Shown here piece after piece: positions 941-60,465 of a stretch of DNA of 64,000 bases (the first letter of the stretch is position 1; every line of letters starts with the position of its first letter). The translations under genes and the position numbers were made by a program. Source of the DNA: Daucus carota subsp. sativus (lineage: Eukaryota > Streptophyta > Magnoliopsida > Apiales > Apiaceae); NCBI RefSeq assembly GCF_001625215.2, contig NC_030387.2:5236501-5300500 (forward strand). The letters run 5' to 3'. Below the pieces are notes generated by a model. The model was not told where the DNA came from. It searched no databases and worked only from the letters and a program-made list of their open reading frames with translations.

Positions 941-2703
941 TTATCTGTACAAACAACTTGGAGGCTTCATGACACCAGAAGCAGTTCCTCTGGCATAGGC
1001 ACAAGACGCATTTGCTGCTCGATTTTTGTAAGTGAGTGCAACATCTTTTAGTCTTATTCCAGTGCAAGGATATTTCTTACTACATTCGAACTGCACTGCA
1101 ACAGGTGTTGCTGATGATCCCCGGATGTCTTCATACCTTACATTGCTGATCTGAACACCAGAGACCTGTATAAAATATAAGTTGAAAGATCAGACATTCA
1201 GATTGTGCGTGATTTAATAGAACAATTATTGAAGCAATTATAATTAATTTACTTTTCCCGGGCAATTCTTGACGTCGGGACAGTAGTTTTGGTCTATGAT
1301 GATAGGATTCGCGACATTATTCATAAAAATGTGCTGAAACAGAACATTTCTGACAAATCCTTTGCTAGGCCTCGCCCATGTTTTTATTCTGACACCGTTG
1401 TCAGTGTTTCGGAATGTAACGGATTTCACTGTCAGGTTTTGGACACCAGGTTCTTGCAAATCCCAGCCGAGGCTTCCAATGCTGTAACCAAAATTAAAAA
1501 TCCCCTCATCAACAATAAATTTAGATTGCGGTGCAAAATTTGATTAACTGATTTATGTATACTACGTACCTGATGCCGTGACCAGGACCGCATGAAACAT
1601 TCTCTATCCATGTGTTATTTGTGCCAGGTCCAATGGAGACACAGTCATCCCCGGTGCTAATTCGAGAGCGAAGAATGCTCACCCCTGAGGAGTATTGGAT
1701 GTGAATACCGTCGGTGTTGGGGCTTCTACCGAGTGCAGAGATTTTGATTCCCCGAAAAACGAGATTTTTGCATTTATACACGATCATGTGGAACATCTGA
1801 CTGTTTATTGATGTCAATCTACTCACCACAACGTTGGTGGAGCTGTAGAACCCTATGCTCTGCATGATCATATATAAGTAACGTTAAGGCATCTATAACG
1901 GGGTTGGCTAAAATCAGTTGGCTAAATTGAACTTGTAGAACAACATGTGAAATTTGTTGAACTTGTAAGATATTGTGTTTCAATAGTATTAGCTATATTG
2001 GTTGACTATAATTTAAAAATAACATGTTATTAATATTTTAGATTGTTATAAATAGAATATATATCACTTCAATATGAGAATTAATTATGTGTAATCATCT
2101 AATAGCTTGACTATAATTATAGACAGAAGAAGAATATAGCGTGATATTTTCAAGAGATTATCTATAATTTTTTATTTTTGGTATGCCAACTTAGCTAAGG
2201 GTTATAATATAGCGATCTATCCACAGTGAATTTTAGTGTTTTAATTGACATACCGTTGCGCCTATAGGACAGTTCTTGCCAGATTTTTTACAATCCCACA
2301 GAGCAGCACCTTTAGCATCCACAGTTCCCCCGGAAATGAAGAGTCCATTAATCCTCTCAAACTTGATCCAGGTTTCGCCACTGCCGATCAGATTGTAATC
2401 CCTGGAAGCTACAATAGTACCCTCAATACGCATGAACATGCTACGTTTACATCTTCGTCCATTGAATACTATAGGACTCCGAATCAAGTATCTTCCCTGG
2501 GGCACGTAAATTCGGACTTCCTTTCTAGAGGCACAAGCTGAATTCCATGCCCTCAGGAGAACCTTGGAAACATCCGTCTTGCCATCAGCTTTGGCTCCCA
2601 ACCTTTTCACATTGATCGAAAGTCTTGATGCCGACGATGAATTCATTAGAAACATGATGGAAAAGGTTAGTAGAAGATAATAAACCATTGCAGTCCTGGC
2701 CAT
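941..2703 (-). CDS. Polygalacturonase PG1 (GH28), four exons, intact
   Basis: Glycoside hydrolase family 28 enzyme expected to hydrolyse alpha-1,4-galacturonan (pectin) in the cell wall. Exons on the minus strand are 2703-2254, 1859-1570, 1481-1253 and 1165-941, with GT-AG junctions and phases 0/2/0, giving 397 residues. The start is the ATG at 2703, followed by a hydrophobic stretch that looks like a secretion signal. The family motifs are complete: SPNTDGI (Asp200), GDDC (Asp221/222), GPGHG (His244) and RIK (Arg278/Lys280). Intron phases match the three plus-strand polygalacturonases further right, so this is an inverted member of the same tandem family. Intron 1 carries a MITE-like insert. 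Whether it acts endo or exo, and in which tissue, cannot be told from sequence alone. Confidence 0.93.
1886..2228. mobile_element. MITE-like insert in PG1 intron 1
   Basis: Most of PG1 intron 1 resembles, in inverted orientation, the block at about 3030-3385 upstream of the same gene. Shared blocks include the stretch around GTTGGTTATAATTTAAAAATAACATGT and its surroundings, read here in reverse. The ends recall Tourist-type elements (GCATCT...). Boundaries are approximate and no clean target duplication was found, so this is an old copy. Confidence 0.45.
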
Positions 2704-2740
2704 CTTAAGGCTGAAAAACAATAATCTGGGACAGGAGAGA

Positions 2741-2750
2741 TTTATATACA
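2741..2750 (-). promoter_or_regulatory. Candidate TATA box of PG1
   Basis: On the minus strand the sequence TGTATATAAATC lies about 40-45 bp upstream of the chosen PG1 start codon. This implies a very short 5' leader. A second AT-rich TATAAAA-like site lies near 2800 and would give a longer leader, so the assignment is tentative. Confidence 0.4.
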
Positions 2751-3029
2751 GAGAGAGGGAGAATGTTTGATGATGGGAATTGTGACAATTTAATGCACCA
2801 TTTTATAGGCAAATGTGTTCCTAATTTTCTATGCAAGTACATGCAGAAGTACAGATTAATTATCCAGGCCTAATAGGCAAGTAATGTAACGTGTAGGTGA
2901 AGCCTGTGCATCTTTAAGTGCATTTCAATTCTCAGGTAATTAAGTCCTTTACTTTCTTCTCAGATCATTGGCTACTTTCTTAATTCTGAAATCATTGGAT
3001 GACACACTATTTAAATTAAAATAATATAA

Positions 3030-3385
3030 CAGCATCTCCAACCATACAAATCTCTTAGCTAAAATGTGAGTTAGCATATATATCAAAAATAAAAAATATT
3101 GCCAACTTATGGAAAAACTCACACTCCAACAATAATATGTTGTTTATAATTTTAGTCAACCTCATATGGATGACTAAATTTGTCAAACCTCTACAGGGCT
3201 GTAAGAAATCTGTAGGAAGATTGCACATCATTTATTATCATATTGAACTAATATATTTTAAAATATTAATAACATATTATTTTTAAATTATAACCAACTA
3301 ATATAGCTAATACCATTGAAGAACAATATGTTACACATTCAACAAATTGTACATAATGTCTTACAGATCCAATTTAGCCGACAAT
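3030..3385. mobile_element. Tourist-like MITE remnant upstream of PG1
   Basis: Starts near AGCATCTCCAACCA, a terminal motif common in Tourist/Harbinger MITEs, and ends near AATTTAGCCGAC. It shares long blocks with the insert in PG1 intron 1 in opposite orientation. Boundaries are approximate. It lies 0.3-0.7 kb upstream of PG1 and could affect its promoter. Confidence 0.45.
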
Positions 3386-4592: not shown

Positions 4593-5261
4593 TTAGAACC
4601 TTTCCGCCAATCTGGAGGTAACAGCTCTTAGTTTTGAATAAACCTTCCCGGCAGGGGAGCCTAAGATAAGACTGCAGAGGGAGTCTCTTGCAATTTTTAT
4701 GTTAGCAAAAGATCCTAAAATGTGAATTTTTGTGTCAGCAATCACAATACGAGTCTTTGTCGAGTTTTCAATTGCAAACTTAGTTTTACCCCCTTTTCCA
4801 GACAACCTCCCAATTGCACGGGAGAGGTGTTCACCTCGTAGAGTTTTGACATCCTTGATTTCAAAAGATTCAACATAAAGCTCATCCAGCCGCAAAAGGG
4901 CAACAGCATCTATCACGTCAAAGCCAAGCATGAAGGCATGGACAAAGTCAGCTGACTTCTGAAGGTTACTGATATCCGGAGTGTCTGATCGAGTCTTTAG
5001 TTCAACTTTCCTCCCCTTAAGATTCATACGGATATCGACCTTCATCTGGTCATATACAGGACCGTAGATTTCCATCCAAGCTTTCTTGAGAGGTGTGTAC
5101 CGATGTGGCGGAACAGAAACCTTGCGAAACTGCACTTGGCCATCAGATATCTCATGTGCCTTCAATGGCTCAAAATTGGGCTTCAATGCTGATGATACAC
5201 GATTGGCATCGGATTGGACCTTTTCAATTTCCATAGAGGTTGTACCTTTGTCGGATTCCAT
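4593..5261 (-). CDS. PNO1: PNO1 / Dim2-like KH-domain ribosome assembly factor
   Basis: Single coding exon of 222 residues. PNO1 (Dim2) is a nucleolar and pre-40S factor that binds the 3' end of 18S rRNA and partners the nuclease NOB1. The middle section (VPPHRYTPLKKAWMEIYGPV) and the C-terminal KH domain with GKGGKTKFAIEN and ADTKIHILGSF are highly characteristic. The length matches the compact plant form. The ATG at 5261 follows a likely 5' UTR intron (5751-5270) whose acceptor lies 8 nt upstream of the start. The promoter carries telo-box and TGGGCC elements, as expected for a ribosome-biogenesis gene. Neighbours are unrelated in function. No defects are visible. Confidence 0.95.
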   Translation of the reverse strand: MESDKGTTSMEIEKVQSDANRVSSALKPNFEPLKAHEISDGQVQFRKVSVPPHRYTPLKKAWMEIYGPVYDQMKVDIRMNLKGRKVELKTRSDTPDISNLQKSADFVHAFMLGFDVIDAVALLRLDELYVESFEIKDVKTLRGEHLSRAIGRLSGKGGKTKFAIENSTKTRIVIADTKIHILGSFANIKIARDSLCSLILGSPAGKVYSKLRAVTSRLAERF

Positions 5262-6950: not shown

Positions 6951-8088
6951 TCAAAGAAATTTATATAAAATCAGTCCACATCCATATCCCATCACGATTG
7001 CTTCCCATGTCAATTCATCACCAGCATCATCTTCATCACCATTTTTGACTTCTTGTGGGGGGTGATGCTGTGTTTGCACATTTCTTCGTCAAAGGTAATC
7101 CACATAACGCGGAGTTTTCTAGATAAGAATTATTGTTAAATGTGTTGAACTGTCCTTTCTGAGGAATCTCTCCTCTATATTGGTTTCCCGAGAGGTTCAA
7201 GACCTCTAAAAATATCAATGTAGTTAGCTGAGGTGGAATAGCCCCTGTCAGTTGATTTGAGGACAAATCTAAATATTGGAGTTCTTTCATATTTCTCAGC
7301 AATGATGGGATATGTCCTGTTAGACTATTATGAGATAAGTTGAGCAATGCAATCCATCTATGCTCTCCAGTAACTTTTGGAATTTTTCCTTGAAATTGGT
7401 TGCACGACAGATCAATGGCTATGTAAATATGAAGGTTATTTCTTACTTTATACTCTATTCCCTTCATAGTTAATGAGACTGATGTTCCATAAGAGTATAG
7501 TTGTTGTCCTTGTGTAAAACTGAAATAAGTTTTATACACGTTATTGGTTGCTTTGATATTTCTAAGGTATTGAATTGGCAAATGGCCCGTAAATTGGTTG
7601 TTAGAGAGATCCAAAATCCTCAAGTTGGGGAAGGAATGTTTTGTGATTTTTGCGCTTACTATCCCCTGAAGTCTATTTGATCGCAAAACTAGAACTTCCA
7701 ACTCTCCAAGAGTATAAAGCCATGACGGAAATGTACCAAATGTACCACCTATTTTGTTGTTTCCGATATCAAGAATTTTCAAGTGCTTACAGTTTCCCAA
7801 AGATTGGGGCAACAGTCTGTTGAAGTAATTGTCGTACATATTTAAATATGTTAGCTGACACCTCTTGGAGAAAGTTTTCGGTATCAATCCTCCAAACTGA
7901 TTATTAGCGATATTAACAGAAAGCAACTTATCATCAAAATTTCCCAGACAACGTGGGAGTGAACCGCTTAATTCATTATATGACAAAAAAAGAATTAAAA
8001 GGGAAGTGGCATTGCAAAACATTATTGGTAGCTTACCTGTAAAAATTGTTGAAGCTCTGGTAAAGTGTAATTTTTAGATTACTATCAT
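6951..8088 (-). pseudogene. Receptor-like protein (Cf-type LRR) pseudogene, 3' part
   Basis: The main frame (8022-7036, 328 residues, open a little further upstream to a stop near 8088) encodes roughly ten plant-type leucine-rich repeats, with blocks such as LDLSNNQFTGHLP and LNLSHNSLTGHIP. These are typical of the C-terminal half of receptor-like proteins that sense apoplastic ligands. The signal peptide and N-terminal repeats are missing. The frame stops at 7036, yet the next frame continues the expected acidic juxtamembrane segment and the start of the membrane helix (DELTWEAIVMGYGCGL) down to a stop at 6951. A one-base shift in an A5 run accounts for the break. It is therefore a truncated, frameshifted remnant, although an assembly error in the homopolymer could explain the shift alone. 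Confidence 0.8.
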
Positions 8089-8162
8089 TCAAGCATACAA
8101 ATTAAAGGAAAATATATAGGGAAAAGCTGACTTGTAAAATAGTTTCCACTTAAATTGATGTA

Positions 8163-8590
8163 TTAGTATAAACTTTAATCTCAAATTTGAAATTTGAAAT
8201 TTCAATTGTTAAAGAATGAGAAAGTACAGCTGAGTGATGTACCTGCAGCCGACAGAGAGTTATCTTCTTGAGAAAGCTTGGTTTCAGTTTGAATTCGTAG
8301 TACTGCACATTCATTTGGGAGCAATAGCAGTAATTGTTTGTATTATATTTGTATTGTAATTGTTATTGTATCTATGTATACTTGTGTGTGTAACTTGCCA
8401 GTGCACATGAGTATAAGCTGGTAAAAGTACTACTCATTATGGTTGATAGGCTGAAAAGTGGAGGCAACATACGTGTCAACAGATGGAGACAGAGAAAGTA
8501 GTGGCAAGAACTGTAATATGAAGGAACTTGAAGGGCGGAAGTTAAGCTGTGAAAAGTTACTGTTCCAAAGAGACAACATGAACTATTATA
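8163..8590 (-). repeat. Duplicated segment, copy A (promoter/first-exon-like)
   Basis: About 430 bp that recur, slightly diverged, at 9309-9545 plus 11117-11308. On the minus strand both copies contain a 24-codon open stretch beginning with ATG (8314-8243 here) that ends exactly at a good splice donor (CTGCAG then GTACAT). This could be the first exon of a duplicated gene whose remaining exons are gone. The encoded peptide is not one I recognise. The LRR pseudogene lies immediately downstream on the same strand. Confidence 0.5.
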
Positions 8591-9308
8591 TGTTAAACCT
8601 GGAGGCATCAACGTGAAAGTTGTATATATCTAATATATATTTCTCAAATAACATGAAAAAGGAGTAAGCAAAGAAAGGAATACTACTAAACAATGCTTTA
8701 TGAAAGAAAATTACATTAAAACTCACTTCATCCCTCACTGACTTTGTGACTTGTACCTCATTTCATTTCTAAGCATACACACTCTGGAAATAAATATGTA
8801 ATTTCAAACCAACATACAAATACATGATCAACAAAATATTACATTACAATTAAAATCTACAAATATAGCCACATAAATATAAAACACACATAACCACATT
8901 ATTATATTTGTTAAGAATATAAATGTTTAAATCATAAGAATTAATAAGCTCAATACGACAAAAGTAGCGTACCATATATAAAAGAAAGAGTTAAAAACGA
9001 CCAATTTATCATTTTTCTCTTTTAGACAAATCATCAAACACCTTGCGAACGAAAGTTTAACCTGCAATTAAAAAACAAAGAAGTTTAGGAAAGTAAATTT
9101 TTCTGTCTTAGACAAATCATCAACATTTTATCAACGAAAGTTTAACCTGCAAACTAAAGAAAAAGAAATTGTTAGAAAAGTATTAGTTCAAATACAGATT
9201 ATAGAGAAGAATTATTAGTAATAGAAATGAGAGAAATATAAAAAAGAATTAGAGATTACATGAAAAAAGTGAGAAGTGAATAAGAAGGAGCAGAAAATAT
9301 GGAGAGAG
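8591..9308. other. Intergenic DNA with a short duplicated motif
   Basis: AT-rich, without a recognisable gene. A block of about 65 bp (TTAGACAAATCATCAA ... GAAAGTTTAACCTGCAA) occurs twice, near 9020-9073 and 9108-9152, as a diverged tandem repeat. Confidence 0.45.
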
Positions 9309-12254: not shown

Positions 12255-15169
12255 ATGCCTAAAGAGCTACACACTTGTCTCCTCTCTATACTATGCTTTG
12301 CATTATGGGCATTTCCATGCGACTCGTATAACGTGGTTCACTTTGGTGCAAAACCAAATGGACGATCTGACTCCTCACTTTCTTTCCTCCGCACGTGGAT
12401 GGCCGCATGCAACTCAGTGCGGCCATCCACGGTGTACGTCCCGCGAGGAACGTATTTATTAAGGCCTGTTACCTTCAGTGGCTCATGCAAGAATAGGGTA
12501 ACGTTCCAGATTGAAGGAACTCTTGTAGCTCCGTATGATTATTGGTCCATGGGAAACTCCGGCTACTGGATTTTGTTTAAAGAGGTTAGTAGAGTGTCAA
12601 TTCTTGGTGGAAAAATAGATGGGAGAGGTGCTGGATTTTGGGGGTGCAGAAGAAAAGGTGGTAATTGCCCCGTTGGTGCAAGGGTAAGTACACTACTACT
12701 CCTGCATAACTCAATAATCAATACACAGTTCATTATACTTTTCCTTTGCCACGTCTACCTTATAACTTAGAGCAAGTCCAATAACTTATCTAAATTAACT
12801 CATAAACTTACATTAACGTAATGTATTAAAAAATATTACTCGAACCAAATTTGCTTGCCATTACCTATTTTTATGTAACCTCTGTTCATTACCTATTCAA
12901 TATTTATGAATAAAAAATTCATCTACCTCCTTCTTTCTTTAACTTTTCTCTCCTTTCCCTCAAATTTATTATTAAAATAATATTTGGGAACAAAAACTTG
13001 GAATTGTTATTGAAATTGACACTAAAAATAGATTCTCTAAATCTGTAGAACATACTATGACTCGCTATTTTATATTATTAATAGACAATGAGATAGTACA
13101 CGCACTAAGACTCATTATTAACAGGTAACCTATCGGACTAGCTATTGACTTTTACAGGCACTTTGTGAGACTTAAGTTACCTTAATTTGTAGTTAAATGC
13201 TAGCTAGTGTAACTAATTAGTTGCTTTGTTAAATCCCATAAATTGAGTGCCAAGAAAGCTGTAGTTGCTGCATGCATGAGATAAATTGAAAGAAAAGACA
13301 GCATAAGAATAATTATTTAAAATGAACGTACAAACTTGCATGATACTCCGTATAGAATATTGACTTGAACGAAATAGTAATATAGTGAATGGGCAATGTG
13401 TGTGTGAATGCAGTCGATATCATTCATGTGGTGTAAAGACATATACGTAAGGGGATTGACCTCAATCAACAGCCAAACCATTCATATGGCGATTGGACAA
13501 AGCAAAAACATGAGAATCGAGTACACGACCATCAGAGCCCCAAGTCGAAGCCCAAATACAGACGGCATTCATGTGCAACACTCTTCAGACATTAGCATCA
13601 GAAGAAGCATTATTAAAACCGGAGATGACTGCGTTTCAATTGGTCCAGGCACCACCAACATGTGGGTCGAACGCATCGGTTGCGGCCCTGGACACGGCAT
13701 CAGGTACTTTTATTCATACTATATTAATGCACAAATACATGACCCTTGATCATCAATCTCCATACAATCATTTTATGATAACTATGTTTGGATATGTAGT
13801 GCTTTTGCTTTTACTTTTTTCAGGTAATTTTAAGAATTTTGAACACACACGTTTGAAAAATATTATATTTAAATTGTTTTTGTGAATAGAAGTTTTTTTT
13901 TTTTTGTTGTTGAGAAATGAGAACAGTGAATAGAAGTATTAGTGTCATATTTTTATTAACAAAAAAAGTTAAGCGACTAAAAGTTCCAAATAGAGGCAGT
14001 AGCAGACCGTAAAAAAAATGTTGTATATTAATGTGTCATTGTAATAATCTTACATAAATTCTTTTTTGTGAGACATTCAGAAAAAAATTGTAGGGGCCGT
14101 TTGGATGAGTTTAAAATAAGTGTTTTTTTCTTAAAATAAAAAAGTGAAGCAAGTTAAGACTTATAAGTGATTAAGGTGTTTGGGAATTCCTAATTTTTTA
14201 TAAGTGCTTCTCGACTTTTTATACAAACGGATAAAAAAATTAAAACCGGATTTATTACGGAAAGAAGCACTTCTTTCCGGTTGTCCAACAGACATGAGAG
14301 CTAGAGTATAAGTTGTTTAATTGGTGATTTGAAGATTAATTTCAACATTTAGCTTATTACAAAACTTGGTGTTTGCAACATTGCAGCATTGGAAGTCTAG
14401 GAAATGGTATCCGGGAAAAAGGGGTGCAGAACGTGACCGTGACATCGTCGGTGTTCACAAAAACTGATAACGGGGTGCGGATAAAGTCATGGGCGAGACC
14501 CAGCAGCGGATACGCAACCGATATTCATTTCAGAAATCTTGTTATGCTAAATGTGATTAACCCTATTATTATTGATCAAACCTATTGCCCCAATTATCAA
14601 TGCCCTCATCAGGTACGTATACTAATAACCCAAAAATATATATCTTTTTTTCCTGATTTAACCGATATTATAATGCACTTGAAAATTACTCCTTCCGTCC
14701 CCCTCATTTGTTTACATTGGGGAAGGGAGACTCGGCACGCATTCTAATCTCTCGTAAAATGTAGTTTGATAATAAAAATTTGATGTTTAAATTTTCAAAT
14801 TTTTATAAAAAAAGAAAATTTTTAAAAATAAATTATAAAACTATGTTTTATATGCGCCTTAAAATGCGTGTTGAGTAGTGTAAAAAAACCGTAAGGAAAT
14901 GAGTAACAGAGGGAGTACTTAACTGAAATGTGTTCGTTATGTAGAGTTCTGGAGTGAAGATAAGCAGAGTAACCTATACAAATATAAGAGGAAGTTCGTC
15001 AAGACCAGAAGCAATAACCCTGGATTGCAGTCCGACTAATCCCTGCACGGGAATAAAGCTGCACAACATTAGGCTTTCAACTCCGAATAGAGCCACCAGA
15101 GCAGTTTGTTTCAATGCAGGTGGGTATACTAGAGGCCTTGTTATCCCCAGGAGTTGCCTTCGAACATGA
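12255..15169 (+). CDS. Polygalacturonase PG2 (GH28), four exons, intact
   Basis: Predicted secreted pectin-degrading GH28 enzyme of 389 residues. Exons are 12255-12683, 13414-13703, 14387-14612 and 14945-15169, all with GT-AG junctions and phases 0/2/0, as in its three relatives here. I start at the ATG at 12255, which directly precedes a hydrophobic secretion-signal-like segment (CLLSILCFALWAFPC). The same frame is open to an earlier ATG at 12183, which would give a longer, less signal-like N-terminus. Catalytic motifs are complete: SPNTDGI (Asp193), GDDC (Asp214/215), GPGHG (His237), RIK (Arg271/Lys273). It is more diverged than PG3/PG4. Introns 1, 2 and 3 each carry transposon remnants, which makes it the longest of the four genes. 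Confidence 0.92.
12770..13147. mobile_element. Tourist-like MITE remnant in PG2 intron 1
   Basis: The left end TTAGAGCAAGTCCAATAAC and a degenerate inverted counterpart near 13125-13147 (ACCTATCGGACTAGCTATTG) suggest an old Tourist-type insertion. The ends are imperfect and a target duplication is not clear. Confidence 0.4.
13882..13937 (-). mobile_element. Short poly(A) retroposition with 12-bp target duplication, PG2 intron 2
   Basis: GTGAATAGAAGT occurs at 13882-13893 and 13926-13937. The 32 nt between are a T run, GTTGTT, then GAGAAATGAGAACA. On the minus strand this reads as TTCTCATTTCTC... followed by a poly(A) tail, much like the tail of the 58499-58594 insertion. It looks like a severely 5'-truncated SINE. 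Confidence 0.55.
14094..14300. mobile_element. hAT-like MITE remnant, PG2 intron 2
   Basis: Begins GGGGCCGTTTGGATGAG, a start shared by many plant non-autonomous hAT elements, and contains AAGCAAGTTAAGACTTATAA, which recurs near 25890. The right boundary is unclear, probably near the GGTTGTCCAACAGAC block. Confidence 0.45.
14689..14915. mobile_element. Stowaway-type MITE in PG2 intron 3
   Basis: Bounded by CTCCTTCCGTCCCCCTCA on the left and its inverted counterpart ending ACAGAGGGAG on the right, with TA on both sides (14687-14688 and 14916-14917). Length is 227 bp. It is the same family as 50258-50507 and 62906-63156. Confidence 0.85.
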
Positions 15170-21152: not shown

Positions 21153-22664
21153 ATGGCTAAGCTAATTCTCTCTTGCATTCTGTTTTTTACATTCACAGCC
21201 CTGTTTTCTCTCTCAAATGCAGCTAATACTATTAATGTGATCAAGTATGGAGCCAAGCCTGATGGCAAAACTGATTCTACGCAGGCATTCGTCAAGGCTT
21301 GGGTGGCGGTATGCAACTCGGCCCAGGCGGTGACGATGTATGTCCCACAAGGGCGTTTTGTCATTAGAGCGGTGGAGTTCAGAGGACCATGCAAGAGTAA
21401 AATTAATGTTCAGATAGATGGAACTATAGTTGCTCCTGGTGATTACCGCGCATTAGGCAATACCGGGAACTGGATATTGTTTATTAAAGTTAACAGAGTT
21501 AGTGTCAATGGGGGAACTCTTGATGCCAGAGGAGCTGCATTTTGGAATTGTAGGGAGTCTGGAAAGAATTGTCCTGAAGGAGCCAGGGTATGTTTTAGTA
21601 GATTATTAAATTATTTTGCATGTGGTTAACTAGACTTGCATTTTATAATAAACTTGCAATGAGTATGTGAGCCTGATAAACAGAACAAAAATTTCAGTCA
21701 ATAACCTTCAACTGGGCGAATGACATAAAAATCAGTGGTCTGACATCGATAAACAGTCAGGCGGCTCACGTGGTGATCAATGGATGCAACAATGTGATGG
21801 TTAGTAATCTGCGGCTTAATGCCCCGGACCAAAGCCCAAACACTGATGGAATTCACGTCCAGACTTCAACAGGTGTTACTATTACCGGAACTACCATCAA
21901 AACGGGTGATGATTGTGTGTCAATTGGTCCTGGTACTAGAAATTTGTGGATGGAACGGATACAGTGCGGCCCTGGACACGGTGTCAGGTAATTCCTTCTT
22001 TATTTTTTGATGTTTTAGGCAAATACTTTTTGCTCTGACATAATTTGCAAAAAAAAAAAAATCTTCTAAATTTTAAAGTCCGCTGATGGCAATTCTTACA
22101 ATTACAGCATTGGAAGTTTGGGAAAAGATGCGAATGAAGCTGGTGTCCAGAACATCACGTTGATAAACTCGGCATTTACAGGTTCAGACAATGGCCTGCG
22201 AATTAAATCATGGGCTAGGCCTACCACTTCCTTTGTCAGAAATGTTGTTTATCAAAATATTCAGATGAGAAATGTGGAGAACCCTATCATTATCGACCAG
22301 AACTACTGCCCCAACAATCAGAATTGTCCTCATCAGGTACCAATTTATATTTTTTACAATTCTAATAAATTTGGCTGATCATATAAGTTTCTTTCTATTG
22401 CTGCTTTGTAATAATAATGTCAAATAATTTTTCATTCGGCAGACTTCTGGGGTGAAGATAACTGGAGTGACGTATAAAAATGTTCAAGGCACGTCGGCTA
22501 GCAAAGTTGCAGTGGCTTTTGATTGCAGTCCTACCCAGAAGTGCACGGGGATTAAATTGCAAGACGTGAAACTCAGTTATCAGAATAGAGATGCACGCTC
22601 AACGTGTAAAAATAGTGGAGGAACAACCAGCGGAACTTCAATGCCAAATAGCTGCTTGAAATAG
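21153..22664 (+). CDS. Polygalacturonase PG3 (GH28), four exons, intact
   Basis: Compact GH28 gene coding for 391 residues: exons 21153-21587, 21698-21987, 22108-22336 and 22443-22664, phases 0/2/0. The N-terminus (MAKLILSCILFFTFTALF) is a clear secretion signal, so the product should act on pectin in the cell wall. Catalytic residues are all present: Asp195 in SPNTDGI, Asp216/217 in GDDC, His239 in GPGHG, Arg273 and Lys275 in RIK. Introns are short (about 100-120 bp). It is the closest relative of PG4, and the resemblance includes about 250 bp of promoter and the 3' flank. The two therefore come from one tandem duplication. Confidence 0.95.
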
Positions 22665-36200: not shown

Positions 36201-37375
36201 TGCATTTAAAAGCCCGATATACCTTTATATTTCGAAAATACCATTGGAAGTCACTTTAGTAGTGCTATATGTCTGCCCTCTGAATTAATTTCCATGTTTT
36301 CATTTGTCTTGGCTATTTATCAGTTTCCATGTGCACCAATTTTCATCAATTTCAGGTCCTAAAGTATTTTATTATTTACAAAGGTTGCTAGAGCTTGTTA
36401 TTATAACTTAGTTCATGTGAAGTTTTCTCCGGTAGGTAGCGGGTAGCTTGACATCGTAACCTTAGTTTGATTTACTGATAGTGAAGGATACCTAGAGCAT
36501 AAGTGCTAAAAGTTTTGTTTTTGTTTTTATTGCAGATCGTGTCTTGCCTAGTATCCATTGACGGCATAAATGTTAATGCCGTAAACAAGGCAGGAGAAAC
36601 CCCTCTTGATATTGCAGTGAAATTTGGAACACCTGAACTTGTTGCCGTTTTAAAAGAGGCAGGTGCCTGTAATGGAAAACCTCCAACTGCAGCAAAACAA
36701 CTCAAGCAGACTGTCAGTGACATAAAGCATGACGTTGAGTCGCAAATCCAGCAGACTCGTCAAACTGGCTTCAGGGTAAAGAAAATTGTGAAGAGAATAA
36801 AGAAGCTCCACATCAGTGGTCTGAACAATGCCATAAATTCAGCAACTGTTGTTGCTGTCCTTATTGCTACAGTAGCTTTTGCAGCAATCTTTACCGTACC
36901 TGGTCAGTATGTTGAGGTTAACACTCCTGGAAACTCCCTCGGTGAAGCACATATAGCCAAGGATCCTGCTTTTATCATATTCTTTTTGTTTGATAGTTTG
37001 GCATTGTTTATCTCTCTGGCTGTTGTTGTAGTGCAGACTTCTGTGGTTGTGATAGAAGAAAAAGCAAAGAAGCAACTCATGTTTGTCATAAACAAGCTTA
37101 TGTGGTTGGCCTGCGTTTCCATTTCAATTGCTTTTATTTCTCTCACGTATGTGGTTGTGGGTGCCCATGAACGGTGGCTTGCTGTGTATGCAACTGTTAT
37201 TGGTAGCTCAATCATGCTTACTACCATTGGCTCCATGTGTTATTGTGTAGTTCGGCATAGGTTGGAGGAGTCAAAGATGAGGAGTATAAGAAGATCCGAG
37301 ACCCCCCGTTCTGTTTCAATGTCATCAGATCCTGAGCTGTATAATGAAAAATATAAGAGGATGTATGCAGTTTAA
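33225..37375 (+). CDS. Ankyrin-repeat protein with PGG membrane domain
   Basis: Three exons (33225-33744, 35718-36127, 36536-37375; phases 1/0) encode 589 residues. Residues 1-70 contain seven copies of a short basic motif around MEKQxSFRG. Ankyrin repeats follow from about residue 86 (GDSPLHLAARGG, GETALYVAAENGH, STALHTAAAQGH, GKTVLHTAARMGH, GQTALHMAVKGKN, GNTPLHIATRKG, GETPLDIAVKFG). Then comes the plant PGG domain from about residue 406 (LNNAINSATVVAVLIATVAFAAIFTVPG) with roughly four membrane helices and a short Arg/Ser-rich tail. Such proteins sit in plant membranes; related ACD6/ITN1-type members act in defence and stress signalling, but no substrate is known for this subgroup. The ATG at 33225 is preferred to an in-frame ATG at 33153 because the repeat begins there. 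Converges tail-to-tail with the 5-phosphatase gene. Confidence 0.92.
33745..35717 (+). other. Long first intron of the ankyrin gene
   Basis: 1973 bp between the donor G|GTAAAA and acceptor TCTGCAG. Contains short open stretches without recognisable domains and a poly-T run near 35325. No bounded transposon was identified. Confidence 0.7.
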
Positions 37376-38460: not shown

Positions 38461-41400
38461 CTACCCCTTTCCCTTTGGAGAAGAATCAGTCTGCGTCCCT
38501 TTGCTCGAGTAGCAGTGACGTACATGTACTGTATGGCTTCTTGTGTCCAACGAATAATTGCCTGTCACAATAATCTTCAGCAAAGCTTCCTTGTCACATT
38601 TGTCTTCAGACCACCAGGTCTGAACACCTTCAACCAATTGTTCCGTGGCATTCAAATCTTTATGGCGAACTAAAATATCTGCAACTTGGTCTGGTCCAAT
38701 AACCCCACGCGCTGGGATGACCTAGATCACATAGAGATGGTGTGTTTCAGGTTAGAGATGAATTTGTTAATCTGACGGTGATCAGATAAAAGTTTCTATT
38801 CCGAGGCCACTAATCTGTATCCTAGATAATGACAAAAATGTTGTGTTTGGTTAGGATGAATAAAACTGGAGGGAATGAAATGAAATTTGAACTATAATTT
38901 AGTTGAATGTTCAATAATTTCATTCCTTCCACCTTTACATTCTTATCATCTTTAACTGGAGCTTAAACCCTCCATTTGTGAAGGAATGATCTATTCCTTA
39001 TTATACCTGATTTCTATCCAAATCTCATCATACAAAATTTGCATCCACTCAATTTTTATCAAGTTTTTCCTTATGCCCTCTATTATTTCCCTTTATTTTC
39101 ACTCATTTCATTCATCCCAACTAAACACTAACTTAAGTTTCCCAATTTCTGTCTTCTGTTTCTTTTTGTTGCTAGTATCAACTATCAAGTATAAAGACCA
39201 TCTGTAAATACGAAAAAAGTGAAACCTTGTCCATCGAGTTTAAATACAGTAATAGATACCTCGAGCCAACGAGGAAAACCAGAGGCTCCTCTTGGCCTGT
39301 ATACCAGTTCCTGCTCATCATCCATTTTAATGTTAGCTTGTCCCTCACATATAAACTGAAATATAGCTTTTTCCGTTGCACTTTTGTTTGTAATTTTGAA
39401 GCTGCCTGTTTCTTGGCTTTGGAGGCTTATATGAGTGGTACTAATCTCTGTTTCTGGAATACCACATAGCTCATGGCGCAAAGACTTTATAGTTTCGTGT
39501 GACTTGATGATTTTCCCAGTTTCTTGTCTCCGGATTGATCTATCAACATTCGCGATATTAACATTTAATATGCATCGGACAGGTTTATGATCACTTTCTA
39601 ACACATCCATACAAGCCTCATACCTGCAAGATTAGTGGACCAATTTTTAAAAGGAAAAAAGAAAAGAAGCGAGCTAGAACTAATCGCCCTAAGCACCTAC
39701 TGTAATATTGAAGCCACTACAGGAAACTCTAAACTGCACTCCAGACTTGTAGATGAGCGGCTGTCTCGATATAGTACCCTATCACACCAGGCAGGTATTC
39801 GCTTCTTCTCCCCCGAATCATATCCTAGAAATGGGAAAAATTAAATGAATAATTATAACTTGAGTTTCCAAAATTACATCCAACTCAAGAGGAAATAGCA
39901 GTAACATACCTCCTAATCCAGGTTTCCCTATGTCAAATTTGTAAGTGGGAGGAAATCTGATGATGGCTTCTCTCATTCCTTGAAAAACTTTACCTGCTTT
40001 CATTTCTGCTCTCAGCTGATCCCTTTCCCGTAACCAATCAAAACTTCTCTGAGACACAAGGTCTCTCGCGTCATCATATGATATTCCAAAAAGGCGATAA
40101 TTTAAGTCACCACAAAAGATAACAAGGTCAGCCTCAGCTAAATCTGGTTTCCCTTTGGCAGGATTAATAGTCTCTTCCGTCTGTCAAAACAAAAGCTCTG
40201 TAGTTTAATCCATAATCTGAATTCGGATAAACATAAATATGAGCTCCAGATATGCATACTTCTGTACCACGAACTCCTTGAGCCGTTGATGAGACACCAG
40301 CTGCAAGACAGATGACCCATGGCAAGCCAGAAGTATAAAGCATCCAACATAAATACGTGGACAAGGCAAGAGAGCAAATCAAGAACAGGTATCGCAGCAT
40401 ACCAGAAGCATTGCTGAGGAGGTTAGACGATCTGCTGAAAGCCATCGAACGATATATATGACTGAAATCAGCATTGCGACGACTCACAGCTTCCAGATGC
40501 GCAGCAAAGTGACAGTTCACGAAACACATTATACGATCATACACTCTCAGTCGCAAACCAACACCACCCTGGATACAAAGACAGGGGCGAGATAAATGTT
40601 AAACCTCTTCAAATCAAAGTAATAGAATTGGGATCAAAGAAAAATATTTCTTTGTTGGAACCAAAACAAATATTTACTTCAATGGAGTTTTTCTTTATTG
40701 ATTAAAGCTTAATTACTCGAGGTTCAACTCTAGACAAAGAAAATTGATAGATATGAGGTGATTTTTGTTTCTTTTTCTGCCAGAGAATAATTTGTTGCAA
40801 AGATTTTACGAGACAATATCCTAAAAATATTCTCTACAACATGTATTTACTATTTAATGAAAATATATTGGAATGTGATTTTCAAGATTTTGATTGATTT
40901 CCGAAAAATAAGACTTCCATTCTTCTATCAGTACAATAATAATGAGAAACAACGAGAAATTGTTCATTTTCAATAATGAATTTCGGTTAGATGATAAACT
41001 TTCTTGAAAGAAAGAAATCCAGGATGCAATTTATTATATTTCAATACAATTCATCTGCAAGGTATGGAGACCTTCCAAAAAAATATAAAAATGAATTTCA
41101 TTTTCAACTGAAAGATAATTTTCATTATAATCTCAATATTTTCTTGATTTCCTTCGAAAGATTTAGAGTAATATAGAAAACCTTATATAAAACTAAAAAA
41201 AATACGCTTAAAACCTCAAAATCAAGAAAAAATTCCTGAATATAATATATATCCCAAAAAGATAATATTTTTTTATCAAAGGATTTTCGAAAAACTAATT
41301 AAGATATCATATAATATATTAGATTTAGTTACCACAAACATACCATTAAAATATGACCAAAAAAATTGAAACAAATAAAAATCAAAATTCAGGAATATAG

Positions 41401-44400
41401 TTAAAAGCAAACAAAAATCGAAAGTGAAAAAAATAGAATGGATATTATGGCTTACTTGGAAAAAATCCAACTAAGCCATAATTAACCGAGCTTCTACTTG
41501 TATATGTTTTGAATTATATCATATATACACAATTATATAATGAATAACTTAAAGATGAACAAATTTATTTGGATCCCATACTACCAGAGTTAAGAATTCC
41601 AAACACTTAAGAAAATAAACAGTTCTACCGGTTGCACAATCAAATCTAACATTTATAGTTTGGAAAAAGATATTGATACCTTATTACCAATGGTGCGACC
41701 CAAACCACATGCCACAGCACCAGCATCAAGGTCTCCAACAAATGTTCTAATACTAGTCCTTACCCTGGATCAATGATATGAAGAACACCACAACAGATAA
41801 ATCTTAAAGTTAAGTCCTTGAGAGATATATTACACCTTGCAAAAGGTAGTTAAGGAAAATTATATAAATGCGAAGCTTATGCATATGAGATAAGCATAGT
41901 TTTTATAGATGAAGTACTTACCAGATAGCTATGAGCAAGCCTGCCAGCTGCCTCGAACCTACACGTTCAAAAGTTGATCCTTCATCCAATGCCTTTCCAA
42001 TTGCATCTTGCCACCAGTTCCCAATTGAACTCCCTTCAAGTCCTACCTACAGTTGAGACAATAGCATTCAACTGTAATAGTAATCGGGGTAGAAAGCTTG
42101 CAGGGAGGGTGGTAAAGAAATGACCAGATTGAAAAAGAATTTACCTTTCCTGAACATATAAATTTTATCAAAAAAGAGTCACTGCCCAGGATTATATTAA
42201 CAATTATAATGGTAAACATAATAAGATGATCCCTTGATCAAGCAAGAAAAATAGAAAGAGCTTGCTATAAAATATTACCACAAACAAAAAAGTAAAAAAA
42301 TATAGGACACCTGATAAATAATTAAGGCAAGACCCCAATGCTTGCATAACTAATAGATCATCATAGCTCTTCCATCCCTTAGTCGGTTTAAGTACTTCAA
42401 TATGTGTCAGAAAGCTCTCAAGAAGGAGAACACGCTCCAAATATAACTTGTTGCAAACACGCAAGCAAGGCCTCCTCAAATCGTATTTTAAAATGACTTA
42501 ATAATGTTGGGCTAAAACCTACATTTCGATACATACTAAAAATATGGCAATGCTGCTCCAGTAGCAAATGTCTGACACTTCTTGTTTAGAAAATAATTTA
42601 TAACTACTAAATACTTCATTGATAATAGAGTACTAAATACTTCATTGATACTCAGTTTCACTTCTATAGTTGTTAAAAGCTATCTAAAAAGATTATGTTG
42701 TAGTTTTGTCAAGAAAATGATACTCCTTAATAAATAGTAAAATGTATTTAAGTCCCATCTTTTTGCAAACGATCCAATAACTCCGATAAATGTGTAATTG
42801 CCTTGAGTTCATATTTTGATGGACCTTCTATAGTATCCGATGCGTTTAAACTCACCGTTTCTTTTGCAGCAGACATGGCTAGAAAACCTGCACCCATCTC
42901 CACTTCTTGCAGACCAACTACAATAATGCCAACATCGGATACTGCAGTACCTACCCAAGCTATAAGTGAATCATGTGAAGCTTTTCCCTGACCAACATTC
43001 CATGTCCCAACTAGAATTTTAACATTTTCCTGTCTTGTATAACTTAGTTCCTTCTTTGATAACTCAGGTCTTATAATCTGATCAATAGGTCCAGGAGATA
43101 CAGTGCTCCATCCACGTATACCGCCATGGGTAGCCAAACTAAAAAAATGACCTCTTCCCACAACCAATTTTAATACAGGGCCATTATGAGCAACCCAACC
43201 TGCAATCAGATTTCCATCAAGATCAAGAACTTGAACAATGCCACTCACATATCCAACCCATATGCGCGACCCGTAAGTGCAAAAGCATAGCACAGCACAA
43301 GGACGATGATTAAATTCTTGCAAACGATTTCCATTTCCATCCCACTGAATAATTAAGCCATTTGTACATCCACTATAGATCATTCCATTTGAGGCAAGCA
43401 CTGCAGCTTCAATTTTTAACTTTGACTCTTCCGTTACGCTCTTTGTTGTAGCTTTACGAACAACACCTGCAGCTCCCCTAATAGCATTACGTGACCGTTT
43501 CAAAAATCCATGGGGTTTTTCTTTTTTTGATTTGGAAGCCAACTTCGGATTCGTCTCATCGTCAACTCTTTGATCTTGCCCTAATGGCATATCAGCTCTA
43601 TTCTCAATATTACCATCTACATTGTACACTTTAAGAAGTTCCTTTGTACGAGCATCCCTGCAATGCACTGACTATCAGGCTAATTAGGTCTTAAAAAATC
43701 TTCTAGATTCCATAAGTAACAAACACATAGATCACTCTGTTGTTCAAAGTTTCTATTTAAACTGCTGAATCAGATTTTATGAGGACTATATCATCATTTA
43801 TAGGACCATTTTATAATAAATACATAAAACTTTGCTATCATATATCCGTGGAACACAAAGTAAATATGTACCAGAGCGAAATAGACGAGGTTCCAAATGC
43901 CCAGACTTTAGCTACAACCTTGTCACACAACAAAATCTTAACATCTTGAGAAGATAAATTACAGACACCATTCAGGGTAACTTTACTTCTGAGGCTAATA
44001 CCGGACCTTTCCACTAGTAAAGAAGCCATGTGTCTTTCCTCCATTTTTAGAGACAGAGATTTATCAATAGCTTCCCAAGGCCAGACATGTATGGCACCAC
44101 CTTCAGAACCTGACCATAGATCACCTGAATTCAAAGAATATTAAGTACATATTGGTGAGGATTCACTAATTAGTAGCTAACGACACCTACACAACTATTG
44201 CAGCAATACTGGAAAGCAACATACTTATATAATAAAAACTCACACGGTATGAAATTTCTCTTAATTGATTGATTTGGCAGCACAATTCGTTTAAACCCAA
44301 AAACGCAATACTAGATTATCATGCAATACCATGATAAGAGACAAAACATAAAACCTTACAGTGCAAAATTAAATATGAATCCTAATTAAAAGTCATTGTA

Positions 44401-46553
44401 TAAGAGAAGTGACTTGTTGATCCTTGTATGCCTTTTCTTCAACAACAGTCAAATGTTATCTGATGCATCTACGTTATTGTGTTTTGAAGTTCTGGTATGA
44501 ATCAGGCTACTACATTGTTTCAAGACATTTTGTGTTATCACTATTTCAGATTTCCCTAGTAAGGAACCTTACGATTACATTAAAAGGAGATATACTGTTT
44601 TTGCAATGCAGAACGATAACGATTACCATATGATGAAATGACCAAGGCAAGAACAGGAGCACGATAAGCCTGCCACGAAAAACCTTCTGGAAAAGGATCA
44701 TCATTCAATTCCTCATCCATTTTCCAAGACCTAATTTTTCCATCTTTATGTCCACTCCAAACCAACCTAGTACCGCTATCAATCGCCAAACACATGGCAG
44801 GCGAAGTGCTGACGGACTCATAAAAAGGCGCCGCTTCTTCGTCTCCACGCCTGGCTCTTCCTCCAATCCCAATCCCTGGCTCAAACACATCCGGTAACTT
44901 CCAAACCCTAACTCCACACTCCTGTCCCGCCCATAATTGAGTATCGGTACTCGCAATTGTTCTCAAAAACTTTCCGACCTGAGTCTCGCGCAGCGGATGA
45001 GGCCGGAGCTCCAGAAACGTCGGCCTGTCGGGATGCACTGCGCCGCGCCGCGGCGCTTTCAGGATTCCCGGCGCGTTTTCAGCATTTCCGATAAATTCGG
45101 GGAGAGATTTCCCATCCGGCGGCGTGATGTACTCGTATGACGACTTCACCTGTTCTTCTTCGGAATCGGATTTGCCTTGGTTGTGTTCGTCCAGGCTGTG
45201 ATTGTGTTGGAGCTGCGGACGATTGTGTTTTATTCGAGTCCCTGTGTTTGTGCGGAGCTGATGTGATTGTGTCTTTCTGGTGTTTTTTAATGCTGAATTG
45301 TTTTCGTCGTTTTGTAATTGTTGTTTTGATTGTTCTCCAGGCGTTTGTGATGAGATTGATCGTCCCGGTGGCAGTGGCAGTGGCAGCGAAGATTCTGATG
45401 CGTCGTCGTTGTTGCTGTTGTTCTTGTTGTTTACATTTTCTTCTCCCGTGTTGCCTAGAACGCACATTGATTGAGTATTCTCAATGGATGGCTGTCCACT
45501 TGATTTGTCGAGCACACACATTGATTGTGTATTATCTATGGATGGCTTTCCTGTTGATTTGTTCTGAGATTGTGAAGCATCGGAAGGCGCTGACTTACTG
45601 TCATGATCATCTGACAATTGTGAATTCCTGTTATTCCCTTCCTTCGTTGTTTTACTTTCTGTTCGTGGCGCTTTATCTAATATACACATTGAGGTATTGT
45701 CGCCCTCTGTTGATTTCTTGTCAGGTGGAGACCTATTCTCATTTTTGCCTTTATCGTCTAATTGATCTCTTGTTGTGCTTTTACTTGGTGCGTTGTTATC
45801 CTTGTTTGTAATATGATGTTTGCCTTCAGTTTCGTTCTCATTTTTACTCTGGCGATTGTCACGGTCACCTTCTATTCTCTTGTTACCCATTGTAGGCGCA
45901 TTATCCAACTCACACCTTAGGTTCTTCTCATCCTTTGGGTGATTGTCACGGTCACCTTCTATTTTCTTATTATCCAATGAATGCACATCCTTTGGGTGAT
46001 TGTCACGGTCACCTTCTATTTTCTTATTACCCTTTGAATGCACATTATCCAACTCAGACACCGGCTTCTTCTCATCCTTTGCAAATTGTTGGCGATTGTC
46101 ACGGTCACCTTCTACTTTCTTATTAGCCTTTGAAGGCGCATTATCCAGCTGACACGCCGGGTTCTCACCCTTTGCAGATTGTTGGCTGACAGTATCATTG
46201 CGAGACGCTGGTGCATTGTCCACTGCACGTTCTGATTTATTCTCCTTATCCACGTTTTGCTTTCCCTTCATATTTTCATGTTGTGGTGGTGCATCAGAAA
46301 CCTGTGGCCTATCACCGTCCTTCGCTATTTCTTTCTCAACAGGTCTCTTATTATGCTTATTCACATCATCTTCCACCTGCCCAGCTTTTCTAGCAGGTTG
46401 CACATTATCATTTCCCCTACGCGGCTCCCCAATTTTCTCATTCTGAGTCGAGGTTGTCGGGTTGTTGTCAATGTCCTTGGATCGCTCTCTAGACATATTG
46501 TTGTTAGCGGGTGGCCTGGTATGGTCTTCGTCCCCGCGAGATGACTCTCCCAT
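38461..46553 (-). CDS. WD40-type inositol polyphosphate 5-phosphatase (5PTase12/13/FRA3 family)
   Basis: Eleven exons on the minus strand: 46553-44627, 44124-43872, 43657-42856, 42046-41922, 41764-41680, 40568-40403, 40300-40260, 40180-39910, 39824-39701, 39623-39260, 38721-38461. All junctions are GT-AG with continuous frame, giving 1472 residues. Residues 1 to about 500 are a charged, disordered region with internal repeats. A WD40 propeller spans about 520-930. The phosphatase domain follows from about 940 ([48 protein letters not shown]), with all catalytic motifs present, and then a C-terminal domain. The family removes the 5-phosphate from inositol phosphates and phosphoinositides; the Arabidopsis relative FRA3 affects actin and secondary-wall deposition. 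I start at MGESSRG (46553). Exon 7 is only 41 nt. Confidence 0.93.
45840..46170 (-). repeat. Tandem repeats encoding acidic/basic spacer in the 5-phosphatase
   Basis: Four to five degenerate units of about 60-90 bp encode LDNAPSKxNKKxEGDRDNxxxxxKDEK-like peptides in the disordered N-terminus of the 5-phosphatase. Units keep the reading frame and vary in length. Confidence 0.75.
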
Positions 46554-50507: not shown

Positions 50508-50509
50508 TA

Positions 50510-52612: not shown

Positions 52613-52951
52613 ATGGAAGGGCTGATCCCGAAGATATTCAAGAGCTTGAAGAAGAGCAAGACTCTAAGGCCTCAACAAAATCCTCAGAAATCTCCTATCC
52701 ATAATATACAAGACTTCTATCCTGACGGTTATAACCTCAAGTATGACATTCCAGCTCTGCAGCAGCAGCAGCAGCAAATGGTTGATGGTTTGAGTGCAGA
52801 AAGCACGTTTAGGCCACGACGACAGAAGTCGTTCAGCAACGCTCATTATGTCGATGGAAGGTATTCTTCGGAAGAGGCTAGAGATTCGTCTAAGCAAATT
52901 GTTCGATTTACAAGTCATAGAAGGATGTTTTCATGTATCACTGGTGCCTAA
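52613..52951 (+). CDS. Small basic plant protein of unknown function (112 aa)
   Basis: Single-exon frame of 112 residues, Lys/Arg/Ser-rich with a seven-Gln run from a CAG tract at residues 50-56. It begins MEGLIPKIFKSLKK and ends SHRRMFSCITGA. The combination of an MEGLIP-type start and a C-terminal MxSCITG-like end recalls a small, uncharacterised angiosperm family, but I cannot name a function or domain. There is no signal peptide or membrane segment. The surrounding sequence has a purine-rich leader and stop-rich flanks, consistent with a genuine short gene. Confidence 0.6.
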   Translation: MEGLIPKIFKSLKKSKTLRPQQNPQKSPIHNIQDFYPDGYNLKYDIPALQQQQQQMVDGLSAESTFRPRRQKSFSNAHYVDGRYSSEEARDSSKQIVRFTSHRRMFSCITGA

Positions 52952-58498: not shown

Positions 58499-58594
58499 CA
58501 TACGTGAATTTTTTTTTTTTTTTTTTTGAAAATGAGAATAAATCTCAACGAGAATCGGCAATTCACGGTGATAATTCTTTCATACGTGAATTTT
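58499..58594 (-). mobile_element. 5'-truncated SINE-like insertion with 14-bp target duplication
   Basis: CATACGTGAATTTT occurs at 58499-58512 and 58581-58594. Between them lie a T run and GAAAATGAGAATAAATCTCA...GGTGATAATTCTTT, that is, on the minus strand, a body of about 52 nt with a poly(A) tail. The body matches 15893-15985. Confidence 0.75.
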
Positions 58595-59157
58595 GTATTA
58601 TATTTGTGTGAATTATATTTTCCAAATTGGTGTTTAAAAAGATACAGCGAGATATTTTATTATTTTTTGACAATTGAAAATTCCATATGAAGAATAAAAA
58701 AACAGAGGTCCGGTCCGACATAAACACGAATATACCTAGTTTTCGAACATAGAATAAAAGATACGGGCGTGCAACAATAAAATTTGGCATTTAGCAAAAA
58801 AAAGTTAAAAATCTTGGCAATCTCCAGCTGTTTTTTCTTCTTAAACCATTCTTTAATCTGCATTTTTAATCAGCGTGATACTCGATCATTTTTAATCTGC
58901 TTTCACCATTGGAGGTAAGCTGTGAGCTGTTAAACCACTGATGATTTTTATGATCACACTTTATTTGACATGTATCATCTTTTATTATTTTTGAATTCAT
59001 TAGTTTCAAGTTTCTTTAGTGTGCATTTCCTTTTTATGTATATATAAATTGTATCTTCATGCTTTCTGCATCCGATTATCACTGTTACTGATTTCATTAT
59101 TATTTCAGAAATGGTCAATCACAGTAAAAGGCGTAACTTTTAATTACTTTTTTTTTT

Positions 59158-59470
59158 TTGTTTCCTCGAAAAGAAGAGAGGTATCTGCTAGGCTAAGCCT
59201 AGTGAATAGCTATTTAGTATCAATGTTTGCAGCTCATAAGATCACATAATTACATGCACATGCAATTGATATCAGTTTCTTATTCTACGAGATGATAAAT
59301 TCTTATGTACAGGACTCTTTTTTTTTTTTTTGGTTTCGGTTGAAGAGGGGGGTATCTGCTAAGCTAATCCTTTTACTTAATGCTTAGTTATTTGGTATTG
59401 ATGTCTGCAGCTCATAAGATCACATAATTACATGCACATTAAATTGATATCAGTTTTTCATTCTCTCGAA
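59158..59470 (+). repeat. Diverged 178-bp tandem duplication upstream of the LEA_2 gene
   Basis: The block GTATCTGCTA(G/A)GCTAA...GCAGCTCATAAGATCACATAATTACATGCACAT...TTGATATCAGTTT occurs twice with a period of 178 bp (GCAGCTCATAAG at 59229 and 59407). Each copy carries a TGCAG that could act as a 3' splice site of a leader intron. Confidence 0.75.
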
Positions 59471-59487
59471 TTTGTTTCCAGTAAGAT

Positions 59488-60465
59488 ATGTCTACATCTG
59501 GTGAGCCTGTGAAAATTGAAAGGGCTGTCAAGGTTGAAGAAGACAAAGAAGGACAGAATGGATTCTTCGGGACTATTAAGGGGTTTATCCATGATATAGG
59601 AGAGAAGTTGGAGGATAAAGTAGGATTCGGGAAACCAACTGCAGATTTTGTAGCGATTCATATCCCTAAAATGAACCTTAAAATGGCTGAAATTGTTGTT
59701 GATGTGCTTGTGAAGAATCCAAATCCTATTCCAATCCCTCTTGTTGACATAAACTACTTGATTGAAAGTGATGGAAGGAAACTGCTTTCTGGCTTAATCC
59801 CTGATGCTGGAACCATCCATTCACATGGTTCAGAGACTATTAAGATCCCAGTGTGTCTTATTTACGATGACATTAAGAGTACGTATGGAGACATACATCC
59901 TGGAAACAGAATTCCTTACAAGGTCAAGATTGACCTCATTATGGATGTGCCTGTCTTTGGCAGGCTAACTTTACCAATGGAGAAAAGTGGAGAGATCCCT
60001 GTGCCATATAAACCTGATATTGATGTTGAGAAAATAAAATTTGAAAGCTTCTCGATGGAAGAAACGGTTGCAAACATCCATTTGAAACTGGAGAACAAGA
60101 ACGATTTTGATTTGGCACTGAATTCATTAGACTATCAGGTTTGGTTGGGTGACATTAATGTTGGTGGTGCAAAATTGTCTAAATCTGCCAAGATCGATAC
60201 ATGTGGTATAACTTACATTGAACTTCCCATCAGCTTTAGGCCTAAGGATTTTGGATCAGCTCTCTGGGATATGATTAGGGGAAGGGGTACTGGTTACACA
60301 ATGAAAGGAAACATTGAAGTGGACACACCCTTCGGACCAATGAAGTTACCTATTAGCAGGGAGGGTGGCACCACACGCCTTAAAAAGAACAAAGAAAACG
60401 GATGCAATGATGAAGATCAAGATGATGATGATGAGGTACACCTGAATTGCTGCTTTTCTTATTAA
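59488..60465 (+). CDS. LEA_2 family protein with two WHy/LEA14 domains
   Basis: Reads 325 residues in one exon. An acidic/basic N-terminus (residues 1-50) precedes two tandem LEA_2 (WHy) beta-sandwich domains at roughly 60-165 and 190-295, with the paired cores NPNPIPIPLVDINYLI and NKNDFDLALNSLDYQVWL. Length and architecture match the plant desiccation-related LEA14-like proteins such as Arabidopsis At2g44060. These are folded, non-classical LEA proteins induced by drought and senescence, probably cytosolic; no signal peptide or membrane helix is seen. The acidic tail runs DEDQDDDDE and then VHLNCCFSY. A splice donor (GAG then GTACAC) at 60435/60436 and an acceptor CTATGCAG before 61329 would replace the last nine residues with Asp-stop, giving 317 residues. 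The acidic ending is the more family-like, so the spliced form may be the real one. Confidence 0.92.
   Translation: MSTSGEPVKIERAVKVEEDKEGQNGFFGTIKGFIHDIGEKLEDKVGFGKPTADFVAIHIPKMNLKMAEIVVDVLVKNPNPIPIPLVDINYLIESDGRKLLSGLIPDAGTIHSHGSETIKIPVCLIYDDIKSTYGDIHPGNRIPYKVKIDLIMDVPVFGRLTLPMEKSGEIPVPYKPDIDVEKIKFESFSMEETVANIHLKLENKNDFDLALNSLDYQVWLGDINVGGAKLSKSAKIDTCGITYIELPISFRPKDFGSALWDMIRGRGTGYTMKGNIEVDTPFGPMKLPISREGGTTRLKKNKENGCNDEDQDDDDEVHLNCCFSY

Follow-up and report, generated by a model that had tools for sequence, protein, structure and literature searches.

A 64-kb window of the Daucus carota genome (35.1% GC), by which we mean the whole stretch of DNA that was analyzed, carries seven complete genes: four polygalacturonases (PGs), one ankyrin-repeat/PGG gene (ANK), one WD40-type inositol polyphosphate 5-phosphatase (5PTase), and one two-domain LEA_2 gene. 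In Arabidopsis, PGs and WD40-5PTases are adjacent far above chance, FRA3 included. We consider it likely that the window is a thinned remnant of a PG-ANK-WD40-5PTase neighborhood that is older than the core eudicots, was kept by descent, and was thinned after genome duplications.

Gene content and integrity of the window

The preliminary description of this DNA had named the same seven genes, and each was recovered at its place as a complete gene model with Pfam matches. To assemble the models from the genomic sequence rather than from transcripts, we joined stop-to-stop frames at splice sites chosen by hand-set consensus scores and by the continuity of the protein; none of the seven has an internal stop. 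Along the window, PG1 on the minus strand is followed by PG2, PG3, PG4, the ANK gene, the 5PTase gene, a small open reading frame (ORF), and the LEA_2 gene.

The GH28 domain was found in all four PGs with E values from 7.3e-85 to 4.9e-92, and all four keep the four conserved plant-PG motifs listed in PMC8509529. PG1 (941..2703, minus strand; exons 2703-2254, 1859-1570, 1481-1253, and 1165-941) encodes 397 amino acids (aa), matches GH28 at E=7.3e-85, and has the motifs SPNTDGI, DDC, CGPGHGISIGSLG, and RIK intact. The motifs are likewise intact in PG2 (12255..15169, plus strand; exons 12255-12683, 13414-13703, 14387-14612, and 14945-15169; 389 aa; E=3.3e-88). PG3 (21153..22664, plus strand; exons 21153-21587, 21698-21987, 22108-22336, and 22443-22664; 391 aa; E=4.9e-92) has ADPG2 as its closest solved structure (7b8b, E=5.7e-83), and PG4 (26358..28258, plus strand; exons 26358-26792, 26890-27179, 27609-27834, and 28034-28258) also encodes 391 aa, with E=8.6e-90. 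The four genes thus have four exons each and lengths of 389 to 397 aa, and their intron places correspond.

The youngest duplicates of the array are PG3 and PG4, with 83.6% identity, a nonsynonymous divergence (dN) of 0.086, and a synonymous divergence (dS) of 0.50. Since the remaining five of the six PG pairs are 50 to 54% identical, with dS values that exceed 2 or are not computable, the array is mostly old and not a single recent expansion. The Arabidopsis tandem array At2g43860-90 likewise contains old pairs, with synonymous divergences (Ks) of 1.4 and 4.2 (PMC1794546 Table 2), and the region of At3g59850 shows collinearity with this cluster of four PGs (PMC1794546). The four exons and 389 to 397 aa of the window's PGs are compatible with the clade of At2g43860-90, At1g05650/60, and At1g65570, as seven of the nine soybean PGs whose listed match is AT2G438xx have four exons. 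Most of the AT3G078xx-like ones do as well (list in PMC5033254), and PG exon number and length were rejected as a marker of the clade.

Between PG3 and PG4, at 25121-25658, lie three 171-bp tandem copies that are 99% alike and adjoin TGGTATCAGAGC on the minus strand. We take the latter to be the usual primer-binding sequence of plant long terminal repeat (LTR) elements, and the repeats resemble tandem copies of a small LTR element.

The ANK gene (33225..37375, plus strand; exons 33225-33744, 35688-36127, and 36536-37375) starts 4,966 bp beyond PG4. Its 599-aa product has ankyrin repeats (Ank_2, E=1.5e-56) followed by a PGG domain (E=3.1e-29), and its N-terminus, by inspection, carries repeated MEKQxSFRG-like units. 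The gene stands tail to tail with the 5PTase gene, and with 1,085 bp between them the two are the closest pair in the window. Upstream of the ANK gene, two tandem 314-bp copies with 95% matches occupy 31349-31979.

The 5PTase gene (38461..46553, minus strand) has 11 exons and encodes 1472 aa, a model in which intron 4 (41922/41764) was placed by hand from the sequence, as the splice script did not return it. The protein contains, in order, the IP5PC-F β-propeller PF23754 (E=1.4e-204), the phosphatase domain PF22669 (E=1.9e-65), and the Ig-like domain PF23755 (E=6.2e-52). An N-terminal WD40 propeller is therefore fused to a 5-phosphatase domain, as defines the WD40-5PTases (IP5P C-F family). 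GDLNYR at residue 1157, PAWCDR at 1234, and SDHKP at 1275, which we take to be the catalytic motifs of 5-phosphatases, are intact, and the protein aligns to the type II inositol-1,4,5-trisphosphate 5-phosphatase chain 3mtc. Ahead of the propeller lies a polar stretch of ∼520 aa with four EGDRDN repeats; in exon 1, a minisatellite within the coding sequence (45851-46186), with periods of 57 and 96 bp, yields the repeated EGDRDN blocks.

The LEA_2 gene (59488..60465, plus strand) lies ∼13 kb past the 5PTase gene with a single small open frame between. It consists of one exon encoding 325 aa and matches PF03168 at E=1.3e-36 over two stretches. By gene form, namely two LEA_2 domains and no intron, it fits the At2g44060 type, a likeness of features rather than of At2g44060 sequence. 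In Ipomoea, the gene homologous to At2g44060 likewise carries two LEA_2 motifs and lacks a coding intron (PMC6796003).

Adjacency of polygalacturonases and WD40-5PTases in Arabidopsis

For the comparison with Arabidopsis, 67 PG loci (PMC3467278 Table 1) and 15 5PTases (PMC7037738) were placed by their Arabidopsis Genome Initiative (AGI) locus numbers. Three of the four WD40-5PTases lie within two loci of a PG: the distance to the nearest one is 1 locus for At2g43900 (5PTase12), 1 for At1g65580 (FRA3), and 2 for At1g05630 (5PTase13), with At2g31830 (5PTase14) at 133. None of the 11 other 5PTases lies that close, the nearest being 17 loci away. A random locus falls within two loci of a PG with p=0.0071, and random placement gives at least three of four with p=1.4e-6. 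5PTase13 and 5PTase14 are whole-genome or segmental duplicates (PMC6562803); when this pair is collapsed to its PG-bearing member, three of three gives p=3.6e-7, although the choice is a favorable one and letting either member count approximately doubles p.

The remaining gene types of the window recur as well. The ankyrin gene At2g31820 is numbered next to 5PTase14 in the published locus names, and the LEA_2 gene At2g44060 is 16 loci from 5PTase12, for which chance is ∼0.0045 with one LEA_2 gene and 0.013 with three. The same gene types are adjacent in the window and in Arabidopsis; the above-chance statistic belongs to the PG-5PTase pairing in Arabidopsis.

Most of the Arabidopsis identities in the preliminary description held up. 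Its naming of At2g43900, At1g05630, and At2g31830 as 5PTase12, 13, and 14 agrees with PMC7037738, and that of At1g05650/60 and At2g43860-43890 as PGs agrees with PMC1794546 and PMC3467278; At2g31820 as an ankyrin repeat protein paired with 5PTase14 and At2g44060 as a LEA_2 gene are both confirmed in print. It had also placed PGs next to a 5PTase family that includes FRA3. This is the case for three of the four Arabidopsis WD40-5PTases, among them FRA3 itself, whose neighbor in the numbering, PG At1g65570, had been absent from its list.

Two 5PTase types are linked twice in Arabidopsis. The non-WD 5PTase6 (At1g05470) lies 16 loci from 5PTase13, and 5PTase7 (At2g32010) lies 18 loci from 5PTase14; Table 1 of PMC6562803 pairs 5PTase6 with 5PTase4 and not with 5PTase7.

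Other features of the window

The block also contains three gene-like features. A PNO1-type KH-domain gene (4593..5261, minus strand) is an intact, intronless ORF that encodes 222 aa when read from its ATG at 5261 and matches KH_PNO1_2nd at E=4.3e-43. A leucine-rich repeat (LRR) receptor-like fragment (7036..8073, minus strand) has LRR Pfam matches; by inspection, a membrane segment ahead of the stop was not evident, and the fragment is probably a partial gene. Duplicated DNA occurs near it within 7036-11312, as the pairs 8163-8398/9311-9546 and 8395-8591/11117-11312. The small ORF between the 5PTase and LEA_2 genes (52613..52951, plus strand; 112 aa) has no Pfam match and is possibly a small plant-specific gene.

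Unassigned open frames of at least 70 aa numbered 64. Ten were searched against Pfam at E 0.01 and none matched; the LRR fragment, among the same 64, matched Pfam separately, which brings those searched to 11 of 64. ARAGORN found no tRNA in the window, and no Rfam family reached its gathering score there. An inverted pair at 50288-50510 and 62903-63125 (223 bp, 87% complementary, 12.4 kb apart) is a probable dispersed repeat.

Origin of the neighborhood

The ancestral state that probably gave rise to the window would be a small array of four-exon PGs, an ankyrin/PGG gene, and a WD40-5PTase gene side by side. This neighborhood would predate the core-eudicot duplication, and its copies would then have lost different members: the 5PTase13 copy would have kept its PGs, the 5PTase14 copy its ANK gene, the 5PTase12 copy its PGs and a nearby LEA_2 gene, and the FRA3 copy one PG. 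The copy in the window, having kept PG, ANK, and LEA_2 together, would be among the more complete. Linkage would stem from descent and slow rearrangement rather than from joint action of the products. PGs act outside the cell, where they cleave the pectin of the wall; the 5-phosphatase acts inside the cell and takes the 5-phosphate off inositol phosphates or phosphoinositides. Losses of this kind amount to fractionation after polyploidy, which is ordinary in plant genomes. The ancestor of the core eudicots underwent a single duplication of the WD40 subgroup of 5PTases (PMC6562803).

Several observations weigh against this origin. AGI numbers reflect gene order only approximately. The Arabidopsis neighborhoods hold differing subsets of the genes, so that we infer their common origin, together with its age and the neutrality of the linkage. 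Further counterevidence comes from soybean, the only further eudicot tested. Its four WD40-type 5PTases are two older genes recently doubled, both pairs being in the duplicate table of PMC6562803, and each is more than 250 loci from the nearest of 111 mapped PGs (of the 112 genes in PMC5033254, the scaffold gene was omitted). They belong to the same gene family as the 5PTase of the window, but their nearest PGs are 268 (10G171700), 559 (20G218600), 291 (17G000600), and 287 (07G273800) loci away. The preliminary description had proposed a block older than the asterid-rosid split; the soybean loci do not support conservation of the linkage across eudicots in general. The sole soybean ANK gene found with AT2G31820 as its listed homologue, to which other copies may be added, is on chromosome 16, which carries none of the four 5PTases, and the locus listed next to it, 16G038300, is a methionine synthase. 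Similarly, the sole soybean counterpart of At2g44060 found, again with other copies possible, is on chromosome 14, close to two markers (2.77 and 2.91 Mb), under a gene name whose assembly predates that of the PG list; for that chromosome, the PG list gives no AT2G438xx-like PG (PMC5033254).

A soybean chromosome 16 quantitative trait locus in which AT2G31820-, AT1G05580-, and AT1G65480-like genes appear together, in a table selected from 135 genes, was considered as support and dropped because no WD40-5PTase is on that chromosome.

The soybean result would be expected if large, tandem-expanding PG arrays had come beside WD40-5PTases separately in the plant of the window and in Arabidopsis, and PG families are indeed large and often tandem, with 24 of 66 Arabidopsis PGs clustered (PMC1794546). 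Such independent arrival is nevertheless unlikely, as random placement yields the Arabidopsis pattern of three loci out of four with a probability of 1.4e-6 and the ANK and LEA_2 gene types recur as well. Descent could also have been partial, with the ANK-5PTase pair ancestral and the PG array and LEA_2 gene added later. ANK and 5PTase are the closest pair in the window and are in print as a pair for Arabidopsis chromosome 2, and no PGs are near the soybean genes; against this, three Arabidopsis WD40-5PTases adjoin PGs, so that a late join would need repeating, and we regard partial descent of this kind as improbable.

It is also conceivable, but in our estimation quite improbable, that selection holds PG, ANK, and WD40-5PTase together because they have chromatin or regulation governing wall growth in common. 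FRA3, described in PMC4762392 as required for strong stems and for the wall to develop properly, is numbered beside a PG, and three Arabidopsis 5PTase loci have PG neighbors. However, soybean keeps the linkage at none of its four loci, and published expression data speak against the shared regulation that the preliminary description had offered as one possibility: five of seven testable Arabidopsis tandem PG pairs diverge in expression, and an RT-PCR (reverse transcription PCR) product of At2g43860 was absent in five tissues and present in suspension cell culture (PMC1794546). Expression of most Arabidopsis Group III (WD40) 5PTases is reported to be mainly in reproductive organs (PMC6562803). 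Nor do PG2 to PG4, ANK, and 5PTase have short shared divergent promoters; the head-to-tail gaps are 3.7 to 6.0 kb, and ANK and 5PTase stand tail to tail. Apart from the wall role of FRA3 itself, little supports a working cluster. That PGs have stood beside WD40-5PTases, including FRA3, since before the core eudicots as a co-regulated wall-growth module that was lost in the soybean lineage seems to us highly improbable. Inheritance of an old neighborhood, thinned by loss, remains the origin we favor, and the interpretation given in the preliminary description is, as a whole, partly supported.

If the neighborhood is ancestral, it would serve as a compact marker by which paralogous regions around eudicot WD40-5PTases can be sorted, and it would explain the PG neighbors of Arabidopsis 5PTase12, 5PTase13, and FRA3. 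Soybean shows that the linkage can be lost and is dispensable, a reason not to ascribe a function to it. For knockouts or mapping at FRA3 or the 5PTase loci, it is worth knowing that PG genes sit alongside. A literature search for PG-5PTase neighborhoods returned PMC6562803 alone, in which polygalacturonase is named once, in the reference list; the lack of a published description holds for that search. A separate search returned no mapping paper listing these gene types together. In maize, taken as a monocot comparison, bv1 (the homologue of rice D50) lies in a 97-kb interval with five genes called uncharacterized. The main text of a maize PG paper contains no Zm00001d016 or Zm00001d017 names, and a name for bv1 in that numbering was not found, so that the maize text weighs neither for nor against the neighborhood.

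Comparison with the Arabidopsis WD40-5PTase regions

Each Arabidopsis WD40-5PTase region resembles the window in part. In the 5PTase14 region (At2g31820-At2g31830), an ankyrin gene adjoins the WD40-5PTase as it does in the window, whereas the nearest PG is 133 loci off. The FRA3 region (At1g65570-At1g65580) has a PG next in number to the WD40-5PTase, but a single one. The 5PTase13 region (At1g05630-At1g05660) shares with the window a PG pair two locus numbers from the WD40-5PTase. Its order would equal that of the window if At1g05640 were an ankyrin gene, as the preliminary description has it; the literature searched does not mention this locus. Unlike the mostly old PGs of the window, its two PGs are young (Ks 0.24, PMC1794546), and none of the Arabidopsis LEA_2 genes inspected lies there. 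Lastly, in the 5PTase12 region (At2g43860-At2g44060), an ankyrin/PGG gene was not confirmed and more loci separate the LEA_2 gene from the 5PTase than in the window, where one ORF intervenes; yet, as in the window, four tandem PGs and a WD40-5PTase are found together there, the PGs adjoining the 5PTase and the LEA_2 gene lying 16 loci off.

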